From positions 35,868 through 99,867 of the forward strand of contig JACAEF010000034.1 of assembly GCA_013388985.1 (NCBI GenBank): 64,000 bases of DNA, read 5' to 3'. Below, piece after piece: positions 2,895 through 31,682 of this stretch; within the stretch, counting starts at the first letter, position 1; each line of letters starts with the position of its first letter. The position numbers and the translations under genes were made by a program. The stretch comes from Rhodocyclaceae bacterium. GTDB lineage: Bacteria > Pseudomonadota > Gammaproteobacteria > Burkholderiales > Rhodocyclaceae. Below the pieces are notes generated by a model. That model was not told where the DNA came from and ran no database searches. It saw only the letters and a list, made by a program, of their open reading frames with translations.

Positions 2895-4183
<1,289 letters not shown>

Positions 4184-5116: not shown

Positions 5117-6289
5117 TCAGCCGGCCAGGAAATGCCGCACCACCACGACGAGCTTGTCGACCAGCTCGTCGGCTTCCGCATCGCTCATCACCAGCGGCGG
5201 TAGCAGACGGATCACCCGTTCGGCGGTGACATTGATCAGGATGCCGGCTTCCAGCCCGGCGGCGACCAGGGCCGCGCAGGGGCGGTCGAGCTCGATGCCG
5301 AGCATCAGGCCCTTGCCGCGGATGGCGACGACGCCGCCGACACCGGCCAAGCCTGCGGCGAGACGCTCGCGCATCCGCTCGCCCAGGACGCTGGCGCGCG
5401 CCGGCAGATCCTCGTCTTCGAGCACCGTCAGCGTCGTCAGCGCGGCAACGCAAGCGAGCGGATTGCCACCGAACGTGGAGCCGTGGTTGCCCGGCTTGAA
5501 CACGCCGTTCGCCCGCCCGGCGGTCAGGCACGCCCCGACGGGCACGCCGGAGCCCAAGCCCTTCGCCAGGGTCATCACGTCGGGCAGGATGCCGGCATGC
5601 TGGTAGGCGAACCATTTGCCGGTGCGGCCGATGCCGCATTGCACCTCGTCGAGCATCAAGAGCCAGCCTTGCGCGTCGCAGATGCGGCGCAGGCCGCGCA
5701 GGTATTCGTCGTGGCAAACGTTGATGCCCCCCTCGCCCTGCACCGGCTCGAACAGCACGGCGACGACGTGGTGGTTGTTCGCCGCCACCTGCTCGATCGC
5801 CGCCAGATCGTCGAAAGGCACGCGCACGAAGCCCGGCACCAGCGGCTCGAAACCCGCCTGCACCTTGCGGTTGCCGGTGGCCGACAGGGTCGCCAGCGTG
5901 CGGCCGTGGAAGGACTGCTCCATGACGATGATCGCCGGCTGCTCGATGCCTTTCTGGTGGCCATACAGCCGTGCCAGCTTGATCGCCGCCTCGTTCGCCT
6001 CGCAACCGGAATTGCAGAAGAAGGCTTCGTCCATGCCGGAAAGCCGCGCCAGGCGTTCGGCCAGCCGTTCCTGCTCGATCACCCGATACAGGTTCGAGAC
6101 ATGGATCAGACGATGCACCTGCCGTTCGAGCGCCGCCGTGAGAAGCGGGTGATTGTGGCCGAGCGTATTGACGGCGATGCCGGCGATGCCATCCAGATAG
6201 CTGCGGCCGTGCTCGTCGAAGAGGCGGCAGCCTTCGCCATGCGTGAAGGCCACGGGCTGCCGGGCATAGTTGTTCATCAGGTGCGACAT
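5117..6289 (-). CDS. argD: Acetylornithine/aspartate aminotransferase
   Basis: YLDGIAGIAVNTLGHNHP, LMLDEVQCGIGRTGKWFAYQH, TLAKGLGSGVPVGA (PLP Lys); start chosen at MSHLMNNYARQPVAF. Confidence 0.94.
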   Translation of the reverse strand: MSHLMNNYARQPVAFTHGEGCRLFDEHGRSYLDGIAGIAVNTLGHNHPLLTAALERQVHRLIHVSNLYRVIEQERLAERLARLSGMDEAFFCNSGCEANEAAIKLARLYGHQKGIEQPAIIVMEQSFHGRTLATLSATGNRKVQAGFEPLVPGFVRVPFDDLAAIEQVAANNHHVVAVLFEPVQGEGGINVCHDEYLRGLRRICDAQGWLLMLDEVQCGIGRTGKWFAYQHAGILPDVMTLAKGLGSGVPVGACLTAGRANGVFKPGNHGSTFGGNPLACVAALTTLTVLEDEDLPARASVLGERMRERLAAGLAGVGGVVAIRGKGLMLGIELDRPCAALVAAGLEAGILINVTAERVIRLLPPLVMSDAEADELVDKLVVVVRHFLAG

Positions 6290-13817: not shown

Positions 13818-14823
13818 TGGTTTTCTTCTCCAGTATGGCTAGAACATGGCGGGCGAGATCGGGCTCGACGTGCGCCTCGACTGGCAGCACCCAGACCGGC
13901 AGCCTTGCAAGGCCGGCGCATTTTAACGCGTCCTTTTCGGTCATCACGATCGCATCGCCGGAAAACTCCAGGTCGGCGGCCCGATAAGGATGATGATCCG
14001 GAAACGGATGCGCTTCGAAGGCAAGGCCGAGGCGGGCAAGGTGATCGAAGAAGCGCTGCGGCTCGCCGATGCCGGCCACCGCATGCAGCTTGAGCCCCGC
14101 CAGCTGCTCCGCGCCGCATACGACACTGGGATCGTCGAGGCGATGGAAGCGCTGCCCCGTCAGACGCATCGTGAAACGGGGCACGCCCGGCCAGGGCGGC
14201 GCGACGGCATCGTGCAGCACCAGCGCATCGACTTCGCGCAGCCGGCTCGCCGGCTCGCGCAGCGGCCCGGCCGGCAGCGGCCAGCCGTTCATCAGCCCGC
14301 GCCGGTCGATCACGGCGATCTCGACGTCGCGCTGCAACCGGTAATGCTGCAGGCCATCGTCGCACAGCAGCAGGTCGCATTCGGGATGCGCAGCGAGCAA
14401 GGCGCGCCCTGCCGCGAGACGATCGGCGCCGACCACGACCGGGCAGCCGCAGCGGCGCGCGAGCAAGAGCGGCTCGTCGCCGACCTCGTGTGCCGTATCG
14501 CCAGCGCCGACTTTGCGGATGTCATGCGTGACGCGGCCATAACCGCGGCTAACGATGCCCGGACGGCGCCCGGCCGCGCGCAGGCGTTCGGCGAGCCAGA
14601 GCGTCAGCGGGGTCTTGCCGGCGCCGCCGGCGACGATGTTGCCGACCACCACCACCGGCACCGGCAGCTTTCCCGACTTCAGCCAGCCGCGACGGTATGC
14701 GAGGCGGCGCAGCCGGGCCAGCGCGAAGAACAGCAGGGCAAACGGCAGCAGCAGCCAGGCGCGCAGCCCCCGGCCACGCCACACCTCCGTCAAGCCGTCA
14801 GGGCTGCTTTTGCTGGGTGGCAA
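13798..14823 (-). CDS. lpxK: Tetraacyldisaccharide 4'-kinase
   Basis: [58 protein letters not shown]. Confidence 0.94.
14488..14515 (+). repeat. DR28 dispersed repeat copy 3 (in frame inside lpxK)
   Basis: GTGTGCCGTATCGCCAGCGCCGACTTTG; encodes KVGAGDTAH in LpxK. Confidence 0.8.
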
Positions 14824-19105: not shown

Positions 19106-19984
19106 TCAAACAGCGGCGACCCGCTCGTAATAGCGGGCGCGATAGAGCAGGCGGCGTTTCCCGGCCGTTTCGGTGAAGCCGCTGCGGTCGTGTAGCACGT
19201 TGTTGCACACCAGTCCCATACCGGGTTCGAGCCGGCCACGCAGCGTCCAGGGCGTCGGCGTGGCGAGAAGGCGTTCCAAGGCATGGCGCGCCGCGGTGGC
19301 GGCGGCATCCCAGACGATGCTCACCGTGCGGGCCGTATAGCGCATGTGCAAGCTGCCATCCTCATTGACGGAAAACACCGGGCCAGGCTGCGCGGCGCGG
19401 GCCACGCCCTGGTCGTCGGTGCGCGGCGGGATGGTCATCGCCACGGGTGAGGACAGCGCGCGGATGAACGCGGGATTCTCGTCGCGCAACAGGATATAGG
19501 CGATCTCGTGGTCGAGCAGCTGGTTCTCGCCGCCGCTGGCCGCGCTTTGCACGCAATGCAGCAACAGGCCGCGGATCGTATGTTCCGGCGTGTTGTAGTA
19601 GCCGTCGGTATGCCATTTGATCGGCCGGTCGGTGTAGGGAATGAAATCCTTGCGTTCGCCACGGGACTCGGCGCCGGTGACGGAAATCGGCGAGATGCCG
19701 TCGTTGTCGGTCAGCCAGTGGCCGTCGAGCGAGCGCATGCCCAGCTGGATGCCCAGCCGCCGGGGGATTTCCTTGTCGGGATCGCTGCCGGTGTTGCTGA
19801 CGTAGATCGCCATGTTGCAGCGCCGATTGAGCGCAACGAGACGCTGCCGTTCGCTTGGCTTGAGCTGGCGCGGATCGTCGAGGCTGACGACGATGTCCTC
19901 GATGCGGCGCGGCGCCGTATCGAGCTTTTCGGCGCGCCAGTCGGCATAGGCACGCGCATCATCCAAATCGAAGGGACCGGGCAT
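19106..19984 (-). CDS. TauD/TfdA-like Fe(II)/2OG dioxygenase family protein
   Basis: IKWHTDGYYNTPEHTIRGLLLHCVQSAASGGENQLLDHE (HxD motif), NNVLHDRSGF. Confidence 0.82.
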   Translation of the reverse strand: MPGPFDLDDARAYADWRAEKLDTAPRRIEDIVVSLDDPRQLKPSERQRLVALNRRCNMAIYVSNTGSDPDKEIPRRLGIQLGMRSLDGHWLTDNDGISPISVTGAESRGERKDFIPYTDRPIKWHTDGYYNTPEHTIRGLLLHCVQSAASGGENQLLDHEIAYILLRDENPAFIRALSSPVAMTIPPRTDDQGVARAAQPGPVFSVNEDGSLHMRYTARTVSIVWDAAATAARHALERLLATPTPWTLRGRLEPGMGLVCNNVLHDRSGFTETAGKRRLLYRARYYERVAAV

Positions 19985-19995
19985 GATGCTCCCTT

Positions 19996-20604
19996 TCAGT
20001 CTATCGAACCGCGCAGATCCTGCCTGCGCTGGCTCTTGGCCTGTTCTGGATTAAACAGCCCCGTGAGGGTTTTTTCCAGCATCTTGAGCGATTCGGGCGC
20101 CTCGATGTCCATCGCCTGGTCGATGACCCAGAGCTTGTCCTTCTCTGGCAGCACGTCGCGCAGGCAGGCGGCGAAGAAGCGCTTGAAGCCGAAATCCGGC
20201 CCCTGTTCCGTGTAGTCGAATTCGGCGTAATCGGCGGCGCGGCGGTTGAACAGGTCGATGAAATGCCGCTGCGATTCGCCGGGCACCGCCTCGCCCAAGA
20301 GCATGATGTTGTTCTCCTCGACGAAACGGGCGATGTTCTTCACCAGCGCGGTAGTGAATTCGCCGCGCGCCGCCTCATCGAGCGCACGGTAGGCGACCCG
20401 GTCCGCCGCCACGGCGAGGAATGCCAGATACTCGCAGACGAAATCGAAGTACGGGCGGCCGGGGTCGATGTCGTACTCGGCCTTGCGCATGCGCTTGATC
20501 GATTCGATCGCCAGCTTCCAGGCGAGCACCGCCACCACCGAGGCGAGCGTCGCCGGGGAGCGTTGCCCCGGCGTATGGAACTTGGTTTTGAGACGGATCG
20601 CCAC
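19996..20604 (-). CDS. Conserved hypothetical protein, member of the Cas6-like/DsrC-like cluster
   Basis: 202 aa ORF, 3 nt from the DsrC-like stop and 11 nt from the TauD-like start region; no recognised domain. Confidence 0.7.
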   Translation of the reverse strand: MAIRLKTKFHTPGQRSPATLASVVAVLAWKLAIESIKRMRKAEYDIDPGRPYFDFVCEYLAFLAVAADRVAYRALDEAARGEFTTALVKNIARFVEENNIMLLGEAVPGESQRHFIDLFNRRAADYAEFDYTEQGPDFGFKRFFAACLRDVLPEKDKLWVIDQAMDIEAPESLKMLEKTLTGLFNPEQAKSQRRQDLRGSID

Positions 20605-20607
20605 TGA

Positions 20608-20946
20608 TCAATATCCACCCTTGCCATAAGGCTGGGGCAGGCCGGCGATACGGCAGCCCTGCTTCGCGGCGCCGCCGTCCGGGAACAATTCGAACATCAG
20701 CTTGTTGTCCGCCTCCGGCATGACACCCTCGTCCTGCAAGCCTTTGATCAGATTGCGCAGGTTCGGCGTATGGCCCTCTTCCTGATACTTCTGGCGCAGG
20801 TAATTGATCACCTTCCAGTGCTGCTCGGTCAGCTCGATGCCTTCCTTTTCGGCGAAGGCATGCACGGCTTCCTCACTGAAGTCGGGTTCGAGCAGATAAC
20901 CATAATCATCGACTTCCTTTTCGACGCCGTTGATGACGATACCCAT
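20608..20946 (-). CDS. TusE/DsrC family paralogue lacking the C-terminal Cys
   Basis: MGIVINGVEKEVDDYGYLLEPDFSEEAVHAFAEKEGIELTEQHWKVINYLRQKYQEEGHTPNLRNLIKGL...ELFPDGGAAKQGCRIAGLPQPYGKGGY; compare dsrC AKQACKIAGLPKPTGCV. Confidence 0.92.
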   Translation of the reverse strand: MGIVINGVEKEVDDYGYLLEPDFSEEAVHAFAEKEGIELTEQHWKVINYLRQKYQEEGHTPNLRNLIKGLQDEGVMPEADNKLMFELFPDGGAAKQGCRIAGLPQPYGKGGY

Positions 20947-20996
20947 GTTTTTCCTCCTTCTACGAGTTGGCTTGATTGATTCGCGTGTGTCTTTTT

Positions 20997-21926
20997 TCAG
21001 TTCGGGGCGGCTTCCGCCGGATTCGACTTGTGGGGAACGAAGATACCGCAACCGCGCTTGCGCTCGCTGCCGAGTCCCAACCGCATCAGCCGCAGCGCGC
21101 CTTCCGCATCGAGGCCATTCACCATCAGGCTGAAGCCGTGCAACACCCCTTCCGCCGTCTTCGCCGACTGTCGCTTGCCGCAGACCAGCGAGCGGGGCAC
21201 CACCCGCAGCGCCGCCAGCGCCCGCTGGCACGCAGCATAAAACTCTTCCTCGTCGGGCATGCCGCTCCCATCGCCGAAGGTGACGAATTTCGAATACAGC
21301 ACGGGCGCTTCAGGGAACGCCTTCTCGCTGGCCGCGCCGACCTCGATGATCGAGCCGGCGAGATCGAGCCGCGCCCCGACCAGGGCCTGCGCCTCGGCCA
21401 CCCGGCTGCGCGGCAAGCGCAATGTCAGATGCGAACGGCGGGCGAGATACCACACGCCATCCCCCGGGCTGAGCCCCGAAATGGGATGCACGCCGGCCAG
21501 CGCTTCCTCTTCCAGCCAGGGCAGGATCCCGCGGATCGCCTGCCAGAGGAGATCGGCGTGATCGAGCGGCACGCTGCCGCCGCGCAGCGCGAACTGCAGG
21601 TCGACCATCTCCGGAGCCCCGCCAGTGGCTTGCTCTCCGCTCGCGGCCGCGGCCACCGGCTCACCGCTCTGCCATGCCTCGAGCTGCTGCTTGGACCATT
21701 CCGCCATTACCTTGCCCCAACGACCGGCAGTGACGGGATCGATGTCGAAGATCGTGAAGCGCCGATGTTCCCGGATGCGCAGGCGCAGCACCGGCACACC
21801 CCCCGCCGCGAAGCGGATCTGCTGCAATTCGATTTCCTGGTTGCCGACAGGCACCCGGAACTTGTCTAGACTGGTGATTTCATCCACGGCTGGATCGGCA
21901 CGGTTGCCAGAGTTGGAATTTCGCAA
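20997..21926 (-). CDS. Cas6/Cmx6-like protein (orphan) with extra N-terminal domain
   Basis: MVDLQFALRGGSVPLDHADLLWQAIRGILPWLEEEALAGVHPISG...LARRSHLTLRLPRSRV...LMRLGLGSERKRGCGIFVPHKS (Cas6-type Gly-rich loop). Confidence 0.75.
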   Translation of the reverse strand: MRNSNSGNRADPAVDEITSLDKFRVPVGNQEIELQQIRFAAGGVPVLRLRIREHRRFTIFDIDPVTAGRWGKVMAEWSKQQLEAWQSGEPVAAAASGEQATGGAPEMVDLQFALRGGSVPLDHADLLWQAIRGILPWLEEEALAGVHPISGLSPGDGVWYLARRSHLTLRLPRSRVAEAQALVGARLDLAGSIIEVGAASEKAFPEAPVLYSKFVTFGDGSGMPDEEEFYAACQRALAALRVVPRSLVCGKRQSAKTAEGVLHGFSLMVNGLDAEGALRLMRLGLGSERKRGCGIFVPHKSNPAEAAPN

Positions 21927-22159
21927 GAGATGGGGCCGGACTATCGCACCGCAAGATGGCGAGAACCATCACCAAATGGGAGAAAGCCTGATACTCCATC
22001 AGGGTAGGTTCCCTTACCCCTTCAAATGCGGTTATTCTACCTGCCGGAGGTATGGTGCTGCCGGCCCGTCAGTCAAGATAATTCGACAACAAACTGGGGA
22101 CGGATGCACGAACATCAAACAAGCAGTTCCCAACAGTCACCTACGAACGAGGAGATAAC

Positions 22160-23461
22160 ATGGCCAAACAGCTTCACCCAACCCCTATGCTAGACCAGCT
22201 CGAGTCCGGTCCCTGGCCCAGCTTCGTCACCGGTCTGAAGCGTCTCGCGAAGGATAAGGATTATGTCGTCGACCTGCTCGGCCACCTCGAGCATTCCTAC
22301 GAAACCCGCAAGGGCTACTGGAAGGGTGGCACGGTGGGCGTGTTCGGTTATGGCGGCGGCGTGATCCCCCGCTTCACCGAAATCAAGGATGAAAAGACCG
22401 GCCAGCCGGTCTTCAAGGATGCCGCCGAATTCCACACCCTGCGCATCATGCCCCCGCCCGGCATGCACTATGACACCGCCACGTTGCGCAAATTCTGCGA
22501 CATCTGGGAAAAATATGGCTCCGGCCTGATCGCCCTGCACGGCCAGTCCGGCGACATCATGTTCCAGGGCTGCACCACGGAAAACGTCCAGCCGGCCTGG
22601 GACGAAATCAACGAAATGGGCTTCGACATGGGGGGCGCCGGCCCCGCGGTGCGCACCGCGATGTCCTGCGTCGGCGCCGCGCGCTGCGAGCAATCCTGCT
22701 ACGACGAGGCGAAGGCCCATCAGAAGATCATCAACAACTTCCTCGACGACATCCACCGTCCCGCCCTGCCGTACAAGTTCAAGTTCAAGTTCTCCGGCTG
22801 CGGCAACGACTGCATGAACGCGATCCAGCGCGCCGACATGGCCGTGATCGGCACCTGGCGCGACAACATGAAGACCGATGACGAGCTCGGCAAGAAGTGG
22901 TTCGCCAAGCATGGCATGAACGAGCTGATCAACGACGTCGTCAACATGTGCCCGACGCGCGCCCTGCAGGTCAAGGACAGCAAGGACGTGCGCAAGGACG
23001 CGCACATTTCCGCCGTCGCCATCAACGACACCCAGTCGCTCGAGATCGACAACAAGGATTGCGTGCGCTGCATGCACTGCATCAACGTGATGACCGGCGC
23101 GCTCGGCCCGGGCAAGGACAAGGGCGCCACGATCCTCGTCGGCGGCCACGGCCACCTGAAGATCGGCGCGACGCTGGGTACCGTGGTCGTTCCCTTCATG
23201 GAGCTGAAGACCGAGGAGGATTACGACAAGCTCGTCGAGTTGGCGCAGAACATCGTCGACTTCTTCGCCGAGAACGCCCTCGAGCACGAGCGCACCGGCG
23301 AAATGATCGAGCGCATCGGTCTGGTCAACTTCCTCGAAGGCATCGGCCTCGACCCCGACGCGAACATGGTCAACTGCCCGCGTTCCAACCCCTACATCCG
23401 TACCGACGGCTGGGACGAGGAAGTCGCCCGCATCAACGCCAAGAAGAAGGCTGCGGCCTGA
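22160..23461 (+). CDS. dsrA: Dissimilatory sulfite reductase alpha subunit (oxidative type)
   Basis: MAKQLHPTPMLDQLESGPWPSFVTGLKRLA...; siroheme/4Fe4S motif CVGAARCEQSCYDE, KFSGCGNDC; ferredoxin CVRCMHCINVM. Confidence 0.97.
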   Translation: MAKQLHPTPMLDQLESGPWPSFVTGLKRLAKDKDYVVDLLGHLEHSYETRKGYWKGGTVGVFGYGGGVIPRFTEIKDEKTGQPVFKDAAEFHTLRIMPPPGMHYDTATLRKFCDIWEKYGSGLIALHGQSGDIMFQGCTTENVQPAWDEINEMGFDMGGAGPAVRTAMSCVGAARCEQSCYDEAKAHQKIINNFLDDIHRPALPYKFKFKFSGCGNDCMNAIQRADMAVIGTWRDNMKTDDELGKKWFAKHGMNELINDVVNMCPTRALQVKDSKDVRKDAHISAVAINDTQSLEIDNKDCVRCMHCINVMTGALGPGKDKGATILVGGHGHLKIGATLGTVVVPFMELKTEEDYDKLVELAQNIVDFFAENALEHERTGEMIERIGLVNFLEGIGLDPDANMVNCPRSNPYIRTDGWDEEVARINAKKKAAA

Positions 23462-23569
23462 TTTCTCCTGGGTTGTCCACCACCGGTTCCGTAAGGAGCC
23501 GGTGGTCGGCCAGGCACAAGACCCTGTTCAGATAGCAACAATTCACCACGATCATTGCGGAGACGATTC

Positions 23570-24643
23570 ATGGCTCAACCTCAAATGCGCAAGCCAGTCG
23601 AGTACTTCCTCGACAACAAGAAATTCCTCCACCCGAAACTCGCCGCCAACTACGGCAACTGGAAATATCACGATCGTCCGCGTCCCGGCGTCCTGCACCA
23701 CGTCTCCAACACCGGCGACGAAGTGTGGACGGTGCGCGCCGGCACCCAGCGCCAGATGGACGTCCACACCATCCGCCTGCTATGCGACATCGCCGACCAG
23801 TATGCCGAAGGGCGTGTACGCTTCACGATCCGCTCCAACATCGAATACATCGTCTCGGACGAAAAGAAAGTCGCTCCGCTGATCGAAGCGCTCGAAAAGA
23901 ATGGCTTCCCGGTCGGCGGCACCGGCAACTCGGTGTCGATGGTGGCCCACACCCAGGGCTGGCTGCACTGCGACATCCCCGGCACCGATGCTTCCGGCGT
24001 CGTCAAGTCGATGATGGATGCGCTGTTCGAAGACTTCAAGAAGGAAGAGATGCCCAACCGCGTGCGGTTGTCGACCTCCTGCTGCGAAATCAACTGCGGC
24101 GGCCAGGCCGACATCGCGGTGATCATCCAGCACACCAAGCCGCCGAAGATCAACCACGACCTCGTCGCCAACGTCTGCGAACGTCCTGCCGTGGTCGCGC
24201 GCTGCCCGGTCGCGGCGATCCGTCCCGCGCTGGTCAATGGCAAGCCCTCGCTCGAAGTCGACGAGAAGAAATGCGTCTGCTGCGGCGCCTGCTATCCCCC
24301 TTGCCCGCCGATGCAGATCAACGACCCGGAGCACTCCAAGCTGGCCATCTGGGTGGGCGGCAAGAACTCGAACGCGCGCAGCAAGCCGTCCTTCCACAAG
24401 CTGGTCGCCGCCGGTCTGCCGAACAACCCGCCGCGCTGGCCGGAAGTCAACGCGATCGTCAAGAAGATCCTCGACACCTACAAGGCCGACGCCCGTCCGT
24501 GGGAGCGCATGGCCGACTGGATCGAGCGTATCGGCTGGCCGCGCTTCTTCGAAAAGACCGGTCTGCCCTTCACCAAGTACATGATCGACGACTGGCGCGG
24601 CAGCCGTTACAACCTCAACGCCTCGAACCACGTCCGCTTCTGA
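23570..24643 (+). CDS. dsrB: Dissimilatory sulfite reductase beta subunit
   Basis: MAQPQMRKPVEYFLDNKKFLHPKLAANYGNWKYHDRPRPGVLHHVSNTGDEVWTVRAGTQR; CCEINCGGQADIAV; CVCCGACYPPCPPM. Confidence 0.97.
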   Translation: MAQPQMRKPVEYFLDNKKFLHPKLAANYGNWKYHDRPRPGVLHHVSNTGDEVWTVRAGTQRQMDVHTIRLLCDIADQYAEGRVRFTIRSNIEYIVSDEKKVAPLIEALEKNGFPVGGTGNSVSMVAHTQGWLHCDIPGTDASGVVKSMMDALFEDFKKEEMPNRVRLSTSCCEINCGGQADIAVIIQHTKPPKINHDLVANVCERPAVVARCPVAAIRPALVNGKPSLEVDEKKCVCCGACYPPCPPMQINDPEHSKLAIWVGGKNSNARSKPSFHKLVAAGLPNNPPRWPEVNAIVKKILDTYKADARPWERMADWIERIGWPRFFEKTGLPFTKYMIDDWRGSRYNLNASNHVRF

Positions 24644-24656
24644 GGAATCCGACACG

Positions 24657-25049
24657 ATGAAGTTTTCCATTCTGGTCAACGAAGGCCCTTACACGCACGA
24701 GGCCTCCGACACCGCCTACCAGTTCGCCAAGGCGGTGTTGGCCAAGGGGCACGAGATCTTCCGCATCTTCTTCTATCACGATGGGGTCAACAACGCCACG
24801 CGCCTGACCACCCCGCCGCAGGACGACCGCAACATCGTCAGCCGCTGGTCCAAGCTCGCGCAGGAAAACAATCTCGACCTCGTCGTCTGTGTCGCCGCGG
24901 CCCAGCGCCGCGGCATCGTGGATGAGGGAGAGATGAAGCGTAACGGCAAGGACGCCACCAACCTGGCGCCGGGCTTCCGCATCTCCGGCCTCGGCCAATT
25001 GATCGAGGCCGGCATCCAGTCCGACCGGCTGGTCGTGTTCGGCGATTGA
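24657..25049 (+). CDS. dsrE: Sulfur relay protein DsrE
   Basis: MKFSILVNEGPYTHEASDTAYQFAKAVLAKGHEIFRIFFYHDGVNNATRL; LDLVVCVAAAQRRGI conserved Cys. Confidence 0.94.
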   Translation: MKFSILVNEGPYTHEASDTAYQFAKAVLAKGHEIFRIFFYHDGVNNATRLTTPPQDDRNIVSRWSKLAQENNLDLVVCVAAAQRRGIVDEGEMKRNGKDATNLAPGFRISGLGQLIEAGIQSDRLVVFGD

Positions 25050-25061
25050 GGGGGCATACAG

Positions 25062-25424
25062 ATGACTACCAAGAAATTCATGATGGTCAATCGCAAGGCG
25101 CCCTACGGCACGATCTACGCGTGGGAGGCCCTCGAAGTGGTGCTGATCGCCGCCGCCTTCGAGCAGGATGTGTCGCTGGCCTTTCTCGACGACGGCGTCT
25201 ATCAGCTCAAGAAGGGCCACAACACCAAGGCCATCGAGACCAAGGCCTTCGAAAAGACCTGGGGGGCGCTGGAAGACTACGACATCACCAAGCTGTATGT
25301 CGCCCAGGAATCGCTGGCAGAGCGCGGCCTGACCGCCGACGATCTCGCCGTGCCCGTCGAAGTGCTCTCCCGCGCCGAAATCGGCAAGCTGATGGAAGAG
25401 CAGGACGTCATCCTGTCGTTCTGA
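25062..25424 (+). CDS. dsrF: Sulfur relay protein DsrF
   Basis: MTTKKFMMVNRKAPYGTIYAWEALEVVLIAAAFEQDVSLAFLDDGVYQL. Confidence 0.93.
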   Translation: MTTKKFMMVNRKAPYGTIYAWEALEVVLIAAAFEQDVSLAFLDDGVYQLKKGHNTKAIETKAFEKTWGALEDYDITKLYVAQESLAERGLTADDLAVPVEVLSRAEIGKLMEEQDVILSF

Positions 25425-25434
25425 GGAAACCAAC

Positions 25435-25731
25435 ATGCTGCACATCGTCAACAAATCCCCATACGACCGTCCCGCGCTGAATTCCGTCCTTGCCACCGCA
25501 GAGGGCGGCACGATCCTCCTCATCGAGGATGGTGTCTTTGCCGCCGTCAAGGGCGGTGCCGAGGAAGCCAAGGTCAAGGCCGCGATGGCCAAGTTCAAGT
25601 TCTACGCACTGCAGTCCGACCTGGAAGCGCGCGGCATGGCCGACCGTGTGATCGACGGCGTCACCGTCACCGATTATGCCGGCTTCGTCGATCTCGTCGC
25701 GGAGCACAAAACCTGCCAGTCATGGCTGTAA
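25435..25731 (+). CDS. dsrH: Sulfur relay protein DsrH
   Basis: MLHIVNKSPYDRPALNSVLATAEGGTILLIEDGVFAAVKG; position after dsrEF. Confidence 0.93.
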   Translation: MLHIVNKSPYDRPALNSVLATAEGGTILLIEDGVFAAVKGGAEEAKVKAAMAKFKFYALQSDLEARGMADRVIDGVTVTDYAGFVDLVAEHKTCQSWL

Positions 25732-25763
25732 CCCGTTTTCAATCAATCAACTAGGAGACAACG

Positions 25764-26096
25764 ATGGCATTCGAACTCAATGGCAAGACCTACGAAACCG
25801 ACGAAGAGGGCTACCTGGTCAACCTGTCGGACTGGAACGAAGATGTCGCCAAGTATCTGGCCCAACAGGAAGGCGTCAATCTGACCGATGCCCACTGGGA
25901 GGTGATCAACTTCCTGCGCGACTACTACAACGAGTTCCAGATCGCCCCGGCCGTCCGCGTGCTGACCAAGGCCATCGGCAAGAAGCTCGGCCCGGAAAAG
26001 GGCAACAGCCAGTACCTCTACGAGCTGTTCCCCTACGGCCCCGCCAAGCAGGCCTGCAAGATCGCCGGCCTGCCGAAGCCGACCGGCTGCGTCTGA
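25764..26096 (+). CDS. dsrC: DsrC, canonical with both redox Cys
   Basis: MAFELNGKTYETDEEGYLVNLSDWNEDVAKYLAQQEGVNLTDAHWEVINFLRDYYNEFQIAPAVRVLTKAIGKKLGPEKGNSQYLYELFPYGPAKQACKIAGLPKPTGCV. Confidence 0.97.
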   Translation: MAFELNGKTYETDEEGYLVNLSDWNEDVAKYLAQQEGVNLTDAHWEVINFLRDYYNEFQIAPAVRVLTKAIGKKLGPEKGNSQYLYELFPYGPAKQACKIAGLPKPTGCV

Positions 26097-26132
26097 TACA
26101 AAAGCAAACCCCGCAGGCGGGCGGCGCCTCGA

Positions 26133-26160
26133 GGTGCCGCTCCGCCAGCGCCGAGTTTCG
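26133..26160 (+). repeat. DR28 dispersed repeat copy 6 (dsrC-dsrM intergenic)
   Basis: AGGTGCCGCTCCGCCAGCGCCGAGTTTC. Confidence 0.8.
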
Positions 26161-26250
26161 CAGTAGCGCTGGTCGCTCCGGCCACCCCCCATCAAGGGCC
26201 GGGCGTAGCGCTGCGACTTTGACTGCTGTGTTCGCCGTGGTGCACCGTCC

Positions 26251-26973
26251 ATGACAACGTTTTTCGCGATCCTGTTCTACCTCGCCTTCGCAATACTTGT
26301 CGTCGGCCTGGCCTACAAGATCTACGACTTTGCCCGCACACCCGCGCCACTGTCGATCCCGACGACACCGGCGCCGACCACCACCACGGGTGTGGCCTTC
26401 CGCATGGCGCGCGAGGTGGTCCTGTTCGAGAGCCTGTTCAAGGGCAACCTGTGGATCTGGCTGTTCGGCTGGATGTTCCACATGGGCCTCTTCCTCGTCC
26501 TGATCCGTCACCTGCGATATTTCGTCAGCGACGTTCCCGCCTGGCTCGTTTTCATCCAGCCCTTCGGCAAGTATGCCGCATTCATGATGGTGGCGGGCCT
26601 GGGTGGCCTGTGGGCGCGCCGCTTCCTGGTCGAGCGCATCCGTTACATCACGACGCCATCCGACCATCTCTGGCTCGCGCTGCTGATCGGCATCGGCATC
26701 ACCGGCGCCGGCATGACCTTCGTCAGCCACGTCGATGTCGTCGCCGTGAAGATCTTCTTCCTCGGCCTGATGCGCTTCGACATCCAGCCGTTGCCCGAGC
26801 ACCCTGCCCTTTACATCCATCTGATTCTCGTCGCCTTGCTGATGATCCTGTTCCCGTTCAGCAAGCTGCTGCACGCCCCCGGCGTGTTCTTCAGCCCCAC
26901 CCGCAACCAGGCCGATACCCCGCGCGAAAAACGTCATCTCGCGCCGTGGGCCGCCCAGATCGAGAAGAGCTGA
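26251..26973 (+). CDS. dsrM: DsrM membrane cytochrome b-type subunit
   Basis: Multi-TM, NarI-like; between dsrC and dsrK. Confidence 0.94.
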   Translation: MTTFFAILFYLAFAILVVGLAYKIYDFARTPAPLSIPTTPAPTTTTGVAFRMAREVVLFESLFKGNLWIWLFGWMFHMGLFLVLIRHLRYFVSDVPAWLVFIQPFGKYAAFMMVAGLGGLWARRFLVERIRYITTPSDHLWLALLIGIGITGAGMTFVSHVDVVAVKIFFLGLMRFDIQPLPEHPALYIHLILVALLMILFPFSKLLHAPGVFFSPTRNQADTPREKRHLAPWAAQIEKS

Positions 26974-26974
26974 C

Positions 26975-28516
26975 ATGGCCGATCTTGAATTCCAGATTCC
27001 GAAATACCGGGAATACCCTGAGGTGCCTGCGCTCCAGCCGGGCGCGATGGCGCATTCGCGTCCGCACGTCGCCAGCGAGAAGATTCAGGAAGCCCTGGGC
27101 TTCCAGGGCAAGCTCGATGACGACTGGCAGGCCACCCATGACAAGGCGATCGCCAAATTCGGCGAGCTGCTCGGCAAATACCGCTCCCTCAAGGTGTTCA
27201 TGGATGCCTGCGTGCATTGCGGCTCATGCACCGACAAGTGCCACTACTTCATCGGCACGAGCGACCCGAAAAACATGCCGGTGGCGCGTCAGGAGCTGAT
27301 GCGCTCGGTCTATCGGCGCTATTTCACCCTCGCCGGCAAACTCTTCCCCGGCTTGGTCGGCGCGAAAGACCTGACCCGCGAGCTGCTCGACGAGTGGTAC
27401 AGCTATTTCTGGCAGTGTTCGGAATGCCGTCGCTGCTCGGTATTCTGCCCTTACGGCATCGATACCGCCGAGGTCACGATGGCGGCACGCCACATCCTCG
27501 ACACGGTCGGTTATGGCCAGAAATACTCCAACGAGATCATCGGCAAGGTCTTCAAGATTGGCAACAACCTCGGCCTGCCCGGCCCCGCGCTGGAAGATAC
27601 CTTGCAGGGGCTCGAAGAAGACGTCAAGGAAGACACGGGCGTCGACGTCAAGTATCCGCTCGATGCCCAGGGCGCCGAAGTCCTGCTGGTCACGCCGTCG
27701 GCCGACTTCTTCGCCGAGCCGCACATCGAATCGCTGATCGGCTACGGCAAGGTCTTCCACGCCGCGGGAATTTCCTGGACGTTCTCCTCCTACGCTTCCG
27801 AAGCCGGCAACTTCGGCCTGTTCGATGGCAGCTACGAGACGATGCGCAAGGTCGCGCTGCGTATCCGCCAGGCCGCGCTCGAACTCGGCGTCAAACGCAT
27901 CGTCGTCGGCGAATGCGGCCATGCCTGGCGCGTCGCCTACGCGTTCTGGAACACCTTGAACGGCATCGGCGCCGGCGCGAATGACCCATTTGCCATCGAG
28001 TTGCAGAAACAGCTCGATCCACGCTACCCGCAGCCCTCGCACATCTGCGAATTCACCTGGGACCTGATCCAGCAGGGGCGTCTGAAGTTCGACAAGGAAG
28101 CCAACGACCATCGCGTCATCACCTTCCACGACTCCTGCAACGTTGCCCGCGCTTCGCGCATGGGCGGCTATCCCGGCGGGCAATTCGACATTCCGCGCAA
28201 CATCATAAAGGCGGTGGCCAACAACTTCGTCGAGATGGCGCCGGAGACGATCCGCGAAGTGACGTTCTGCTGCGGCGGTGGCGGCGGCATCCTCACCGAT
28301 GAGCTCATCGAGGCGCGTGTCAAGGGCGCTTTCCCGCGCATGGAAGCGCTGCAGCAGGTGGTCGAGAAGCATGGTGTCAATTTCATGGCCACCATCTGTG
28401 CGATCTGCAAGGCGCAATTCACCAAGGTTCTACCGTACTACGGCTTCAACATGCGACTGGTCGGAGGCGTGCATCAGCTGGTCAGCACCGCGATACGCCT
28501 CGGCAACGAACATTGA
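26975..28516 (+). CDS. dsrK: DsrK, HdrD-like FeS protein
   Basis: CVHCGSCTDKCHYF; CSECRRCSVFCPYGID; CCGGGGGILTDEL (CCG domain). Confidence 0.95.
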   Translation: MADLEFQIPKYREYPEVPALQPGAMAHSRPHVASEKIQEALGFQGKLDDDWQATHDKAIAKFGELLGKYRSLKVFMDACVHCGSCTDKCHYFIGTSDPKNMPVARQELMRSVYRRYFTLAGKLFPGLVGAKDLTRELLDEWYSYFWQCSECRRCSVFCPYGIDTAEVTMAARHILDTVGYGQKYSNEIIGKVFKIGNNLGLPGPALEDTLQGLEEDVKEDTGVDVKYPLDAQGAEVLLVTPSADFFAEPHIESLIGYGKVFHAAGISWTFSSYASEAGNFGLFDGSYETMRKVALRIRQAALELGVKRIVVGECGHAWRVAYAFWNTLNGIGAGANDPFAIELQKQLDPRYPQPSHICEFTWDLIQQGRLKFDKEANDHRVITFHDSCNVARASRMGGYPGGQFDIPRNIIKAVANNFVEMAPETIREVTFCCGGGGGILTDELIEARVKGAFPRMEALQQVVEKHGVNFMATICAICKAQFTKVLPYYGFNMRLVGGVHQLVSTAIRLGNEH

Positions 28517-28548
28517 TCCAACAACCCGATAAACACACGGAGACGACG

Positions 28549-30516
28549 ATGTCAGCGACCCCCGAAACGACAAACGTGAAGTTGACCTTCCGCCATTTCA
28601 AGGATGGTGAAAAGCCGGACAGCTACAAGCGCTGGCAAGACAAGATCTTCCAGGCGGGCTGGTCCTACAAGTGCCCGACCTACATCCAGTCCACGCCGCC
28701 GTGTCAGGGCTCCTGCCCGTCGGGAGAAGACATCCGCAGCTATCTGAACATCGTGCGCGGCATCGAGAAACCACCGGTCGGCGCCGATGGCAAGCCGGTC
28801 ATGCCCTGGCAGGAATATGCCTGGCGGCGTCTGACCGAAGCCAACCCCTTCCCGGCGGTGATGGGCCGTGTCTGCCCCGCACCCTGCGAGTCGGGGTGCA
28901 ACCGCAATCAGGTCGAAGACCACGTCGGCATCAATTCGGTCGAGCATTATCTGGGCGAATACGCGATCAAGAACAACCTGCAATTCAAGAAGCCCGAGAA
29001 GCTCACCGGCAAGAAAGTGGCGGTGATCGGCGGCGGTCCGGCCGGCCTGTCGGTCGCCTACCAGCTGGCGCTGAAGGGCCACTCGGTGACGATCTTCGAC
29101 GACCATGACAAGCTCGGCGGCATGATGCGCTATGGCATTCCCGGCTACCGCACGCCGCGCGAAGTGCTCGATGCCGAAATCCAGCGCATCCTCAACCTCG
29201 GCGTCGAGACGCGCATGAACTGCAAGGTCGGCGTCGACATCACGATCGACCAGATCCGCAAGGACTTCGACGCCGTCTTCCTCGGTCTCGGCGCCCAGGG
29301 CGGCCGCCAGCTGCCCGCCGAAGGCGCGGAAAACACGCCGAACGTCGTCACCGCGACCGCCTTCCTGAAAGCCTTCAACGACGGCCGTCTGAAGTCGGTC
29401 GGCAAAAACGTCGTCGTCGTCGGCGGAGGCGACACCTCGATGGACGTCGCCACCGTGGCCCGTCGCCTCGGCCACATCGACAAGATCAACCCGACCGACT
29501 GGGAAGCCGCGATCGCCGGCCACCTCGCCCAGGACGTCGCCAACATTTCGCAGCGCCAGGGCGCCAACGTCGTGCTGACCTCGGTGTTCATGACCGCCAG
29601 CAAGCATGAAATCGAACATGCTCAGTCCGAAGGCATCGAGATCATGCAAGGCTGGATGCCGGTGGCCGTGATCAAGGGCGCGGATGGCCGCGCTACCGCG
29701 CTGCGCGTCAGGCAATGCGAAGCCAAGATGGTGGGTGGTAAGCTCGATATCAAGCCGATCGAAGGCACCGAGAAGGATCTGCCGGCCGACCTGATCGTCT
29801 CGGCGATCGGCCAGACCATCGACCTCACGGGTCTGTCCGAATTCGACAACGGCAAGGGCGGCGTCACCGCCGACCGCAACTATCAGGTGCAGGGCAAGCC
29901 CGGCGTGTTCTGCGGCGGTGACGTGATCCGCCCGCACCTGCTGACCACCGCGATCGGCCATGGAGCGATCGCCGCCGATGGCATCGATCAGTTCCTGCAA
30001 GGCCTCGAGGTCGGCAAGCGGCCGAAGATCGACGTGCATTACTTCGACCTGCTGCGCAAGTATCATGAAAAAGGCGTCGAATTCCACGAGATCCATGGCC
30101 CGATCCGCGGTTCTTCGGAATCGAAGGATGTGATCCACAACTTCGACAACCGCGCCGACCGCTACATCATTCCGCACACCGAGCTGTTCCTCGGCCACTT
30201 CCAATACACGCCGCGCAACAAGCGCAAGATCGTCCATCTGACCAAGGAAGAGGCGCTCGGCAACTTCGAGGAGCGCCTCGAACCGCTGAACGATCAGCAG
30301 GTGGTGGCCGAAGCGAAGCGCTGCATGAGCTGCGGCCTGTGCTTCGAGTGCGACAACTGCGTCGTCTATTGCCCGCAGACGGCCGTCTATCGCGTCAAGA
30401 AGACCGAGGCGACGACCGGCCGCTATGTCGCCACCGACTACGACAAGTGCATCGGCTGCCACATCTGCCACGATGTCTGCCCGACCGGCTACATCCAGAT
30501 GGGCCTCGGTGAATAA
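28549..30516 (+). CDS. dsrL: DsrL FeS flavoprotein (NAD(P)H:acceptor oxidoreductase)
   Basis: GKKVAVIGGGPAGLSVAYQLALKGHSVTIFD; C-terminal ferredoxin CMSCGLCFECDNCVVYCP / CIGCHICHDVCPTGYI. Confidence 0.95.
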   Translation: MSATPETTNVKLTFRHFKDGEKPDSYKRWQDKIFQAGWSYKCPTYIQSTPPCQGSCPSGEDIRSYLNIVRGIEKPPVGADGKPVMPWQEYAWRRLTEANPFPAVMGRVCPAPCESGCNRNQVEDHVGINSVEHYLGEYAIKNNLQFKKPEKLTGKKVAVIGGGPAGLSVAYQLALKGHSVTIFDDHDKLGGMMRYGIPGYRTPREVLDAEIQRILNLGVETRMNCKVGVDITIDQIRKDFDAVFLGLGAQGGRQLPAEGAENTPNVVTATAFLKAFNDGRLKSVGKNVVVVGGGDTSMDVATVARRLGHIDKINPTDWEAAIAGHLAQDVANISQRQGANVVLTSVFMTASKHEIEHAQSEGIEIMQGWMPVAVIKGADGRATALRVRQCEAKMVGGKLDIKPIEGTEKDLPADLIVSAIGQTIDLTGLSEFDNGKGGVTADRNYQVQGKPGVFCGGDVIRPHLLTTAIGHGAIAADGIDQFLQGLEVGKRPKIDVHYFDLLRKYHEKGVEFHEIHGPIRGSSESKDVIHNFDNRADRYIIPHTELFLGHFQYTPRNKRKIVHLTKEEALGNFEERLEPLNDQQVVAEAKRCMSCGLCFECDNCVVYCPQTAVYRVKKTEATTGRYVATDYDKCIGCHICHDVCPTGYIQMGLGE

Positions 30517-30543
30517 ACCGGAGGACAAGGGGTAAGGAGGAGT

Positions 30544-30924
30544 ATGGCCATCATGAAACAGACGCTCGCGGCGCTGGCGGCGGTCCTGCTGCTTGCCCCT
30601 GTTCTCGCCAGCGCAGGCACGCCGAAGCCGGATCTCAAGATCGAGAACCCGGGAAGCTGCATCGCGCCGGTGCCCGAGATGCGCCGCAATCACATGGAGA
30701 TGTTGAAGCACACGCGCGACCGGACCCTGCGCCAAGGCATCCGCGGCGAGAAGGCGAGCCTCAACGGGTGCATCAACTGCCATGCCAGCAAGACCACCGG
30801 CTCGGTGCTCGGCCAGGGGGGCTTCTGTCAGGAATGCCATACCTATGCCGCCGTCAAGCTGGATTGCTGGGATTGTCATCAACCCAAGGCCGGCAATCAT
30901 GAGGCCGTGGGAGTCAAGCCATGA
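30544..30924 (+). CDS. dsrJ: DsrJ periplasmic triheme cytochrome c
   Basis: Signal peptide plus three CXXCH motifs CINCH, CQECH, CWDCH. Confidence 0.95.
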   Translation: MAIMKQTLAALAAVLLLAPVLASAGTPKPDLKIENPGSCIAPVPEMRRNHMEMLKHTRDRTLRQGIRGEKASLNGCINCHASKTTGSVLGQGGFCQECHTYAAVKLDCWDCHQPKAGNHEAVGVKP

Positions 30925-31682
30925 GCGAACCGCAAGACCGCATCGAAAACAAATCGCGCCGCAGTTTCGTCGGAGCGGCGGCCGTTGCCGGCGCGAGTGC
31001 CGGTGTCGCCGCGCTGGCGCCCGGGCTGAAGCTGATCGAAGTCGCCGGTGCCGCGCCCCGGGCGCCCGGCGAGCCCGCCTCTTCCGCGGTGCGCTGGGGC
31101 ATGCTGATCGACACGACCAAATGCGCGAGCGGCTGCGATGCCTGCGTGAAGGCATGTGCGACGGAAAACGGCATCAACGAGACCGTCAAGGATCCGCGCC
31201 AGGGTTCCCAGTGGATCCGCAAGATCGACCTGAAAGATCCCAAGACGGGCCAGGAGTATTCGCTGCCGATGCTTTGCCAGCACTGCGAGCATCCGCCCTG
31301 CGTCGATGTCTGTCCTACCGGCGCCTCGATGAAACGCGCCGACGGCATCGTGCTCGTCGACCGCCACATCTGCATCGGCTGCCGTTACTGCATGATGGCC
31401 TGCCCCTACAAGGCGCGCTCGCTGGTGCATATGCCGCTCACCGAGCAAAACCCGTTGGTGCCCCGTGGCCAGGGTTGCGTCGAAGCCTGCACCTTCTGCG
31501 TCCAGCGCGTCGACCGCGGCCAGCAGCCCGCCTGTGTCGAGGCCTGCCCGGAAAAAGCCATGTTGTTCGGCAATCTCAACGACCCGAACAGCGAGATCGC
31601 CCAACGCGTCGCGAAAGAAAAGACGACGCAGGTGCGCGCCGATCTCAAACTGAATCTCGGTGTGCGTTACCAGGGAATCTGA
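30921..31682 (+). CDS. dsrO: DsrO periplasmic ferredoxin with Tat signal
   Basis: NKSRRSFVGAAAVAGASAG Tat-like signal; CASGCDACVKAC, CQHCEHPPCVDVCPTGA, CIGCRYCMMACPYKA. Confidence 0.95.
   Translation: MSEPQDRIENKSRRSFVGAAAVAGASAGVAALAPGLKLIEVAGAAPRAPGEPASSAVRWGMLIDTTKCASGCDACVKACATENGINETVKDPRQGSQWIRKIDLKDPKTGQEYSLPMLCQHCEHPPCVDVCPTGASMKRADGIVLVDRHICIGCRYCMMACPYKARSLVHMPLTEQNPLVPRGQGCVEACTFCVQRVDRGQQPACVEACPEKAMLFGNLNDPNSEIAQRVAKEKTTQVRADLKLNLGVRYQGI

Follow-up and report, generated by a model that had tools for sequence, protein, structure and literature searches.

The stretch analyzed here, 64,000 nucleotides of a Rhodocyclaceae genome (contig JACAEF010000034.1; hereafter the window), contains four co-directional genes, 21926 to 19106, that encode a Cas6-like protein, a paralogue of DsrC, a 202-residue protein and a TauD-like oxygenase and are separated by 50, 3 and 11 nt. 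The four genes are read away from dsrA, with which a dsrABEFHCMKLJO run begins at 22160 (Table 1). Order, strand and spacing agree with the initial annotation of this DNA, and profile searches bore out its family calls. The Cas6/Cmx6-like protein matched PF09559 (E=3e-54; 184 bits, cut-off 26.7) and TIGR02807 (150 bits, cut-off 98.9), and its extra N-terminal domain was identified as PF22295/DUF6967 (E=5e-28). The DsrC-family protein matched PF04358 (E=4e-31; 108 bits, cut-off 24.9) and also exceeded the cut-off of TIGR03342, and the TauD-like oxygenase matched PF02668 (E=1e-16). The 202-residue protein, which the annotation had left unassigned, gave no family match in these searches. The start of the Cas6-like gene is ambiguous between TTG 21926 and GTG 21887, the latter being near the first residue common to relatives. 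We regard the locus as, almost certainly, a module dedicated to dsr and not a CRISPR (clustered regularly interspaced short palindromic repeats) system.

Table 1. Positions of the module genes and of neighboring features in the window.
Feature	Position	Strand	Remarks
Cas6-like gene, DUF6967-Cas6/Cmx6 fusion	20997..21926	-	309 aa if the start is TTG 21926
DUF6967 (PF22295) domain	21690..21884	-	residues 15-79; profile match
Cas6 (PF09559) domain	21024..21605	-	residues 108-301; Gly-rich loop GLGSERKRGCGIFVPHKS; profile match
DsrC paralogue	20608..20946	-	112 aa; C-terminus KGGY, without penultimate cysteine
202-aa protein	19996..20604	-	predicted all-helical; conserved in the module; no fold match
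TauD/gamma-butyrobetaine-hydroxylase-like Fe(II)/2-oxoglutarate (2OG) oxygenase	19106..19984	-	H125-D127-H265 and R278 invariant
Palindrome-rich conserved block	21944..22055		operator-like; divergent intergenic region
dsrA	22160..23461	+	divergent neighbor (context)
dsrB, dsrE, dsrF, dsrH, dsrC, dsrM, dsrK, dsrL, dsrJ, dsrO	23555..31682	+	context
Canonical DsrC	25764-26096	+	within the dsr run; both cysteines present

The Cas6-like protein is a near-universal companion of dsr in gamma- and betaproteobacterial sulfur oxidizers. Among 300 genomes of the order, searched with the whole Cas6-like protein (so that either the Cas6-like or the DUF6967 part can match), full-strength dsrA was present in 64, including all 62 genomes with a match; two had dsrA alone, none had a match without dsrA and 236 had neither. 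In a sample of 369 genomes of the class, 118 had PF09559 and 117 had dsrA; both were carried by 110, the Cas6-like protein alone by 8, dsrA alone by 7 and neither by 244. Contig ends explained 14 of the 15 exceptions: in all seven dsrA-only genomes, dsrA sits at or beside the end of its contig, towards the expected place of the module, and module genes are cut by a contig end in seven of the eight Cas6-only genomes, the eighth being G596, with a 7.4-kb contig. These counts ignore kinship and span 87 of the 272 genera in the class sample; genes in the genome samples were called as simple open reading frames (ORFs).

The arrangement is kept as well. Of 34 order loci, 32 have a divergent dsrA no more than 4 kb away, as do 71 of 79 named-genome contigs and 32 of 40 class loci. 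A DsrC paralogue lies at most 1 kb off in 32, 70 and 33 of these, respectively; the shortfalls include short contigs and genomes with the genes apart, such as G407 (dsrA ∼40 kb off). Interspersed with these genes or trailing them are, in many loci, a tandem rhodanese or TusA-like gene, and further the 202-residue gene and TauD. The HDOD and metallo-β-lactamase genes at 19045-17292 recur beside the module mainly within its own genus and were left out of the module parts. Named carriers include Thiobacillus thioparus DSM 505, Thiobacillus denitrificans RG and Sulfurisoma sediminicola BSN1. Five carrier genomes measure ∼1.0-1.1 Mb at 94-99% completeness, and the four ∼1-Mb genomes that were mapped all retain TauD, the Cas6-like protein and the DsrC paralogue beside dsrA. 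A search for viral or phage copies found none. By linkage to and co-occurrence with dsrA, the module belongs to the dsr cluster. The tie to dsr noted in the initial annotation therefore holds across the order and class samples, far more widely than the window, and the module is kept in dsr genomes, mostly divergent beside dsrA; the label 'orphan' is misleading, as in its class the protein is a fixed component of the dsr cluster. A second full dsrA, away from the module, was seen in G182, G608, G381, G088 and other genomes.

The AlphaFold2 model of the Cas6-like protein (pLDDT 90.8) gave as its best Foldseek match 8fcu_B, the Cas6 of a type I-B CRISPR-associated transposon (CAST; E 7e-17, target template modeling score 0.83), with other Cas6 proteins next in the list. 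The predicted fold is the dual ferredoxin-like fold of Cas6. As a CRISPR yardstick, we used six PF09559-type proteins of cyanobacterial plasmids, which are encoded beside cas3 and cas8, together with the CAST Cas6 of PDB entry 8fcj. A branch with support 100/98 in a tree of 86 rows separates all 78 dsr-linked representatives, those not adjoining dsrA included, from the CRISPR Cmx6 and CAST Cas6 proteins. Constant positions that set the dsr clade apart from the CRISPR set are Arg164 (98%), Glu226 (99%; proline in the CRISPR set), Gly250 (100%) and, behind the Gly-rich loop, the pair His299-Lys300 (93% and 99%). The loop itself is retained, with Gly284, Gly286, Gly292 and Gly294 present at 97-100%.

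Two histidines are candidates for catalysis. The DH-motif histidine is found in 6/6 of the CRISPR set and 65% of the dsr clade, and the GIH histidine, absent from the CRISPR set, likewise in 65% of the dsr clade. Because CAST Cas6 has an asparagine at DH and a histidine at GIH, we leave the catalytic residue unnamed. All 40 gammaproteobacterial copies carry the DH histidine, and the histidines are degenerate in betaproteobacteria; judged from these alignments, it is unlikely that every member of the dsr clade relies on histidine-based cleavage for the function they share. DUF6967, fused in the window gene, is in most relatives encoded upstream by an ORF of its own. The small gene that precedes the Cas6-like gene in gammaproteobacteria encodes mostly a 62-residue or a ∼235-residue protein, which is not DUF6967 and for which no NCBIfam family was found; the 62-residue partner (pattern MLxLSEILLQEH...GEMFFRMDVKPPF.DTP..WE, loci L183-L221) gave, at the right place, only sub-threshold scores against DUF6967. 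Another possible non-CRISPR Cas6 is encoded on the Gloeobacter morelensis plasmid pGMOR1 (L244, 2977-3768), where a Cmx6 gene lies beside PAPS-reductase-family and cupin genes in a stretch with no cas genes listed.

TIGR02807, whose cut-off the protein passes, is an 'equivalog' model for the Cas6 of type I-MYXAN, which speaks for an ordinary CRISPR Cas6, either a remnant or one serving arrays in trans. We consider this explanation exceedingly improbable in view of the separate clade, the tight tie to dsrA and the neighborhoods: mapped module loci have dsr genes beside the Cas6-like gene instead of the cas3/cas8/devR/cas5 operon that is present in the cyanobacterial plasmid controls. Cas1 is absent from 15 of 20 carriers, the five ∼1.0-1.1-Mb genomes included. 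A search of the window revealed no CRISPR array, as the initial annotation had stated. Elsewhere in this genome, we identified a type I-C locus (contig C85, L051; repeat GACGCCCGGCTCCATGTGGGCCGGGCGAGGATTGAAAC, of which the stretch read contains eight copies) and a Cas9-encoding type II locus (contig C131, L052). CRISPR RNA (crRNA) is matured by Cas5 in type I-C and by RNase III or by itself in type II, with no Cas6 in either. With both loci typed, the neighborhoods mapped and the dsr clade separated in the tree, the CRISPR explanation was dropped, in keeping with the earlier suggestion that the protein does not process crRNA. Neither of the two findings named at that stage as able to overturn it was made, since the genome holds no Cas6-using CRISPR type and the predicted fold is that of Cas6. 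A GC-rich dispersed repeat of type TGCCGTCCYGCCAGCGCCGACTTTC occurs on several contigs of the genome, at window positions 14491, 15949, 17053, 60514 and 62437, at 5134 and 9633 of L051 and at 3409 and 19526 of L052.

The DsrC paralogue differs from canonical DsrC at the residues on which the latter depends. The position of the penultimate cysteine (CysA) is occupied by lysine in 99% of 142 paralogues, as against cysteine in 98% of canonical DsrC; the upstream cysteine (CysB) is present in 31% of the paralogues, the window copy included, as against 98%; and 137 of 141 paralogues end in KGGY. Conservation of the penultimate cysteine is strict among DsrC sequences, and DsrEFH requires this residue to interact with DsrC (PMC3397948). 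The paralogue, which lacks this redox cysteine of the DsrC/TusE relay, should therefore stay outside the known relay. This bears on a further explanation, in which a branch of the Tus/Dsr relay thiolates tRNA or another RNA that the Cas6-like protein presents. TusE is a DsrC homologue, and TusA-like or rhodanese genes are frequent neighbors; loss of the cysteine that TusE and DsrC need nevertheless makes a TusE-like transfer of sulfur to tRNA through the paralogue unlikely, as far as sequence can tell, and with it the tRNA-related sulfur system that the initial annotation had suggested. CysB, too, is missing from most paralogues, and the recurrent neighbors that were seen include no adenylating PP-loop enzyme. 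We give such a relay branch very little credence. In a symbiont transcriptome, a 'DsrC/TusE' gene, peg.3252, is among the listed highly expressed genes; it is eleven numbers from dsrC, with DsrH and DsrE at 3242 and 3244 (PMC13137333), and going by this gene order it would be a KGGY-type paralogue.

In the TauD-like oxygenase, which is distantly like gamma-butyrobetaine and TmpA hydroxylases, the HxD...H triad and the 2OG-binding arginine (His125, Asp127, His265 and Arg278) are invariant in 28/28 homologues, so that the Fe(II) and 2OG sites are apparently intact. The 202-residue protein is conserved in the module and predicted, with good model confidence, to be all-helical; its model matched no solved structure in the PDB. 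Comparison of the window with two congeners showed strongly purifying selection, the ratios of nonsynonymous to synonymous substitution rates (dN/dS) being ∼0.15 for the Cas6-like gene, 0.004-0.011 for the DsrC paralogue, 0.10-0.12 for TauD and 0.02-0.06 for the 202-residue gene. Over all estimates, dN/dS ranged from ∼0.15 to 0.19 for the Cas6-like gene and from 0.004 to 0.09 for the DsrC paralogue. The conservation of the oxygenase and of its metal and 2OG sites, together with the nearly invariant KGGY tail, would fit a maturation device in which the oxygenase modifies a target, possibly that very tail, and the Cas6-like protein and DUF6967 bind or recognize it. TauD and DUF6967 also persist together where the Cas6-like protein is absent. 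TauD persists, however, beside dsr in loci where no KGGY protein is seen, and we know of no precedent for a Cas6 fold in maturation; we judge this explanation unlikely.

Our preferred reading, which we put forward tentatively, is that the module serves to control reverse Dsr, with the Cas6-like protein as its putative RNA-binding part and the KGGY-tailed DsrC as the part that would meet the Dsr machinery. The mRNA-related or regulatory system also suggested in the initial annotation is thus a possibility. A regulatory role is suggested by the loss of the catalytic cysteine and by two reports on canonical DsrC, one of DNA binding upstream of dsr (PMC5944118) and one of a putative function in transcriptional regulation (PMC7787665). 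A Cas6-fold protein that has left CRISPR would work with a DsrC paralogue unable to carry sulfur along the known route, a small partner (DUF6967 here), the oxygenase and the helical protein, and the module products would presumably interact. The KGGY-tailed protein would act as a non-catalytic mimic of DsrC that reads or occupies the Dsr machinery. The Cas6-like protein, for which its predicted fold suggests RNA binding, would bind one particular RNA, for which a dsr transcript or a small RNA is the likeliest choice, and thereby adjust how much of the sulfur-oxidation enzymes is made. The gammaproteobacterial proteins may, in addition, cleave the RNA that they bind. A more far-reaching version, that Cas6 was domesticated once into CRISPR-independent, RNA-based control of lithotrophic sulfur oxidation, with the KGGY DsrC as sensor and the Cas6-like protein binding or cutting dsr-related RNA, and was then inherited with dsrAB through gamma- and betaproteobacteria down to the ∼1-Mb genomes, is possible and rather doubtful as a whole.

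Several observations weigh against RNA-based control. Neither the DH nor the GIH histidine is present in 32 of 152 dsr-linked rows, and a search of the intergenic region between dsrA and the module gave no RNA target. In gammaproteobacterial loci (e.g. L189, L194, L203, L207 and L215), this region contains a TATCCC-N4-GGGATA palindrome ∼130-300 nt upstream of dsrA. Near matches occur in 24 of 31 loci, and full-score sites number 1.27 per kb there as against 0.003 per kb elsewhere. Because its flanking bases do not pair, we read the palindrome as a site in DNA, and from its sequence it looks like a putative operator of a dsr regulator. The window (21944-22055) and its betaproteobacterial relatives share a conserved block of ∼110 nt that is possibly the betaproteobacterial version of this operator; in Thiobacillus, facing copies of TACTCC-N4-GGGTAGG make a large inverted repeat that is mostly constant in sequence, with essentially one covarying pair. 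An RNA hairpin target in the intergenic region was rejected, since Rfam returned chance matches only and the palindrome flanks are unpaired; folding z-scores of the leaders averaged ∼-0.9 and -1.1 with a wide spread.

The distribution of the Cas6-like protein also counts against it. In a phylum sample, PF09559 was found in none of 48 further dsrA genomes outside the class, so that reverse Dsr does not depend on the Cas6-like protein in principle. It is accordingly a trait of Gammaproteobacteria as defined in GTDB, betaproteobacteria included, and not of all reverse Dsr systems. Five out-of-class dsrEFH-type clusters (L254-L258) all lack it, and four of these have TauD beside dsrA, three of the four together with DUF6967. 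Within the order, G083, G132, G217 and G277 have lost the Cas6-like protein and kept DUF6967 and, mostly, the 202-residue protein and TauD; G217 nevertheless encodes a KGGY DsrC, far from dsr (L274/L280). The parts of the module are thus separable, and a strict dependence of the KGGY tail on the Cas6-like protein, suggested by the locus maps, was abandoned in view of G217. In G132, a DsrC paralogue that is linked to dsr (L063, 9061-9390) lacks KGGY.

A protein scaffold is nearly as likely as RNA-based control. Here, a Cas6 fold no longer engaged in RNA work would, with DUF6967, keep the KGGY DsrC bound to DsrAB, DsrEFH or sulfurtransferases in one complex and aid assembly or sulfur traffic. 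The degenerate histidines of betaproteobacteria, the new, clade-specific constant residues next to the Gly-rich loop, the fusion with DUF6967 and the rhodanese or TusA-like genes often found in the same run would all suit such a role. It accounts less well for the retention of the four loop glycines, the loop being RNA-contacting in Cas6 proteins, and for the constancy of the DH histidine in the gammaproteobacterial copies. We take the scaffold to be a serious, if still doubtful, possibility beside the RNA-based control that we prefer.

Reverse Dsr drives much of microbial sulfur oxidation, and its gene cluster holds several conserved companions, one of which is automatically annotated as a CRISPR protein. 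Nearly every dsrA genome of the class, assembly permitting, has the module or part of it. If the module controls or assembles the Dsr machinery, it would supply a piece that a textbook pathway has lacked, a CRISPR RNA endonuclease would have been recruited into energy metabolism, and many 'cas6' annotations in dsr genomes would be misleading. The initial annotation's claim of an undescribed system appears to be right: in the open-access literature, we found no paper that discusses a link of Cas6 to DsrC, dsrAB or sulfite reductase, and none on DUF6967. Prior notice of a cysteine-less DsrC class is possible, the literature search having covered open-access papers. In a study of mangrove metagenome-assembled genomes, a figure legend lists cas6 among the genes in dsr clusters, without comment in that legend (PMC10989796).

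Taken together, the parts of the module resemble known systems and depart from each of them. With Cas6/Cmx6 of type I-MYXAN (I-B) and CAST Cas6 (8fcj/8fcu), the Cas6-like protein shares the PF09559/TIGR02807 profiles, the dual ferredoxin-like (RAMP) fold, as predicted, and the Gly-rich loop; in contrast to them, the dsr-linked proteins form their own clade in a dsr neighborhood without a cas operon, are fused to or paired with DUF6967, and combine the clade-specific residues Arg164, Glu226, Gly250, His299 and Lys300 with variable candidate catalytic histidines. The DsrC paralogue belongs by PF04358/TIGR03342 to the DsrC/TusE/DsvC family and is set apart from canonical DsrC by the absence of CysA, the infrequent CysB and the near-invariant KGGY end. 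A cysteine-less DsrC class named 'RspA', reportedly described by Venceslau et al. in 2014, resembles it in concept. The oxygenase has the PF02668 profile, facial triad and 2OG arginine of TauD/TfdA Fe(II)/2OG oxygenases, but is dsr-linked and scores far below the equivalog cut-offs of enzymes with known substrates. Like the accessory genes dsrN, dsrR, dsrS and dsrL of reverse Dsr, the module is linked to dsrAB in sulfur oxidizers; unlike them, it is transcribed divergently from dsrA, and none of their products has, to our knowledge, a Cas6 fold. We know of no system in which a Cas6 clade free of CRISPR is tied to sulfur oxidation. The novelty lies not in the matched folds, each of which is known, but in their combination and its constant link to dsr.

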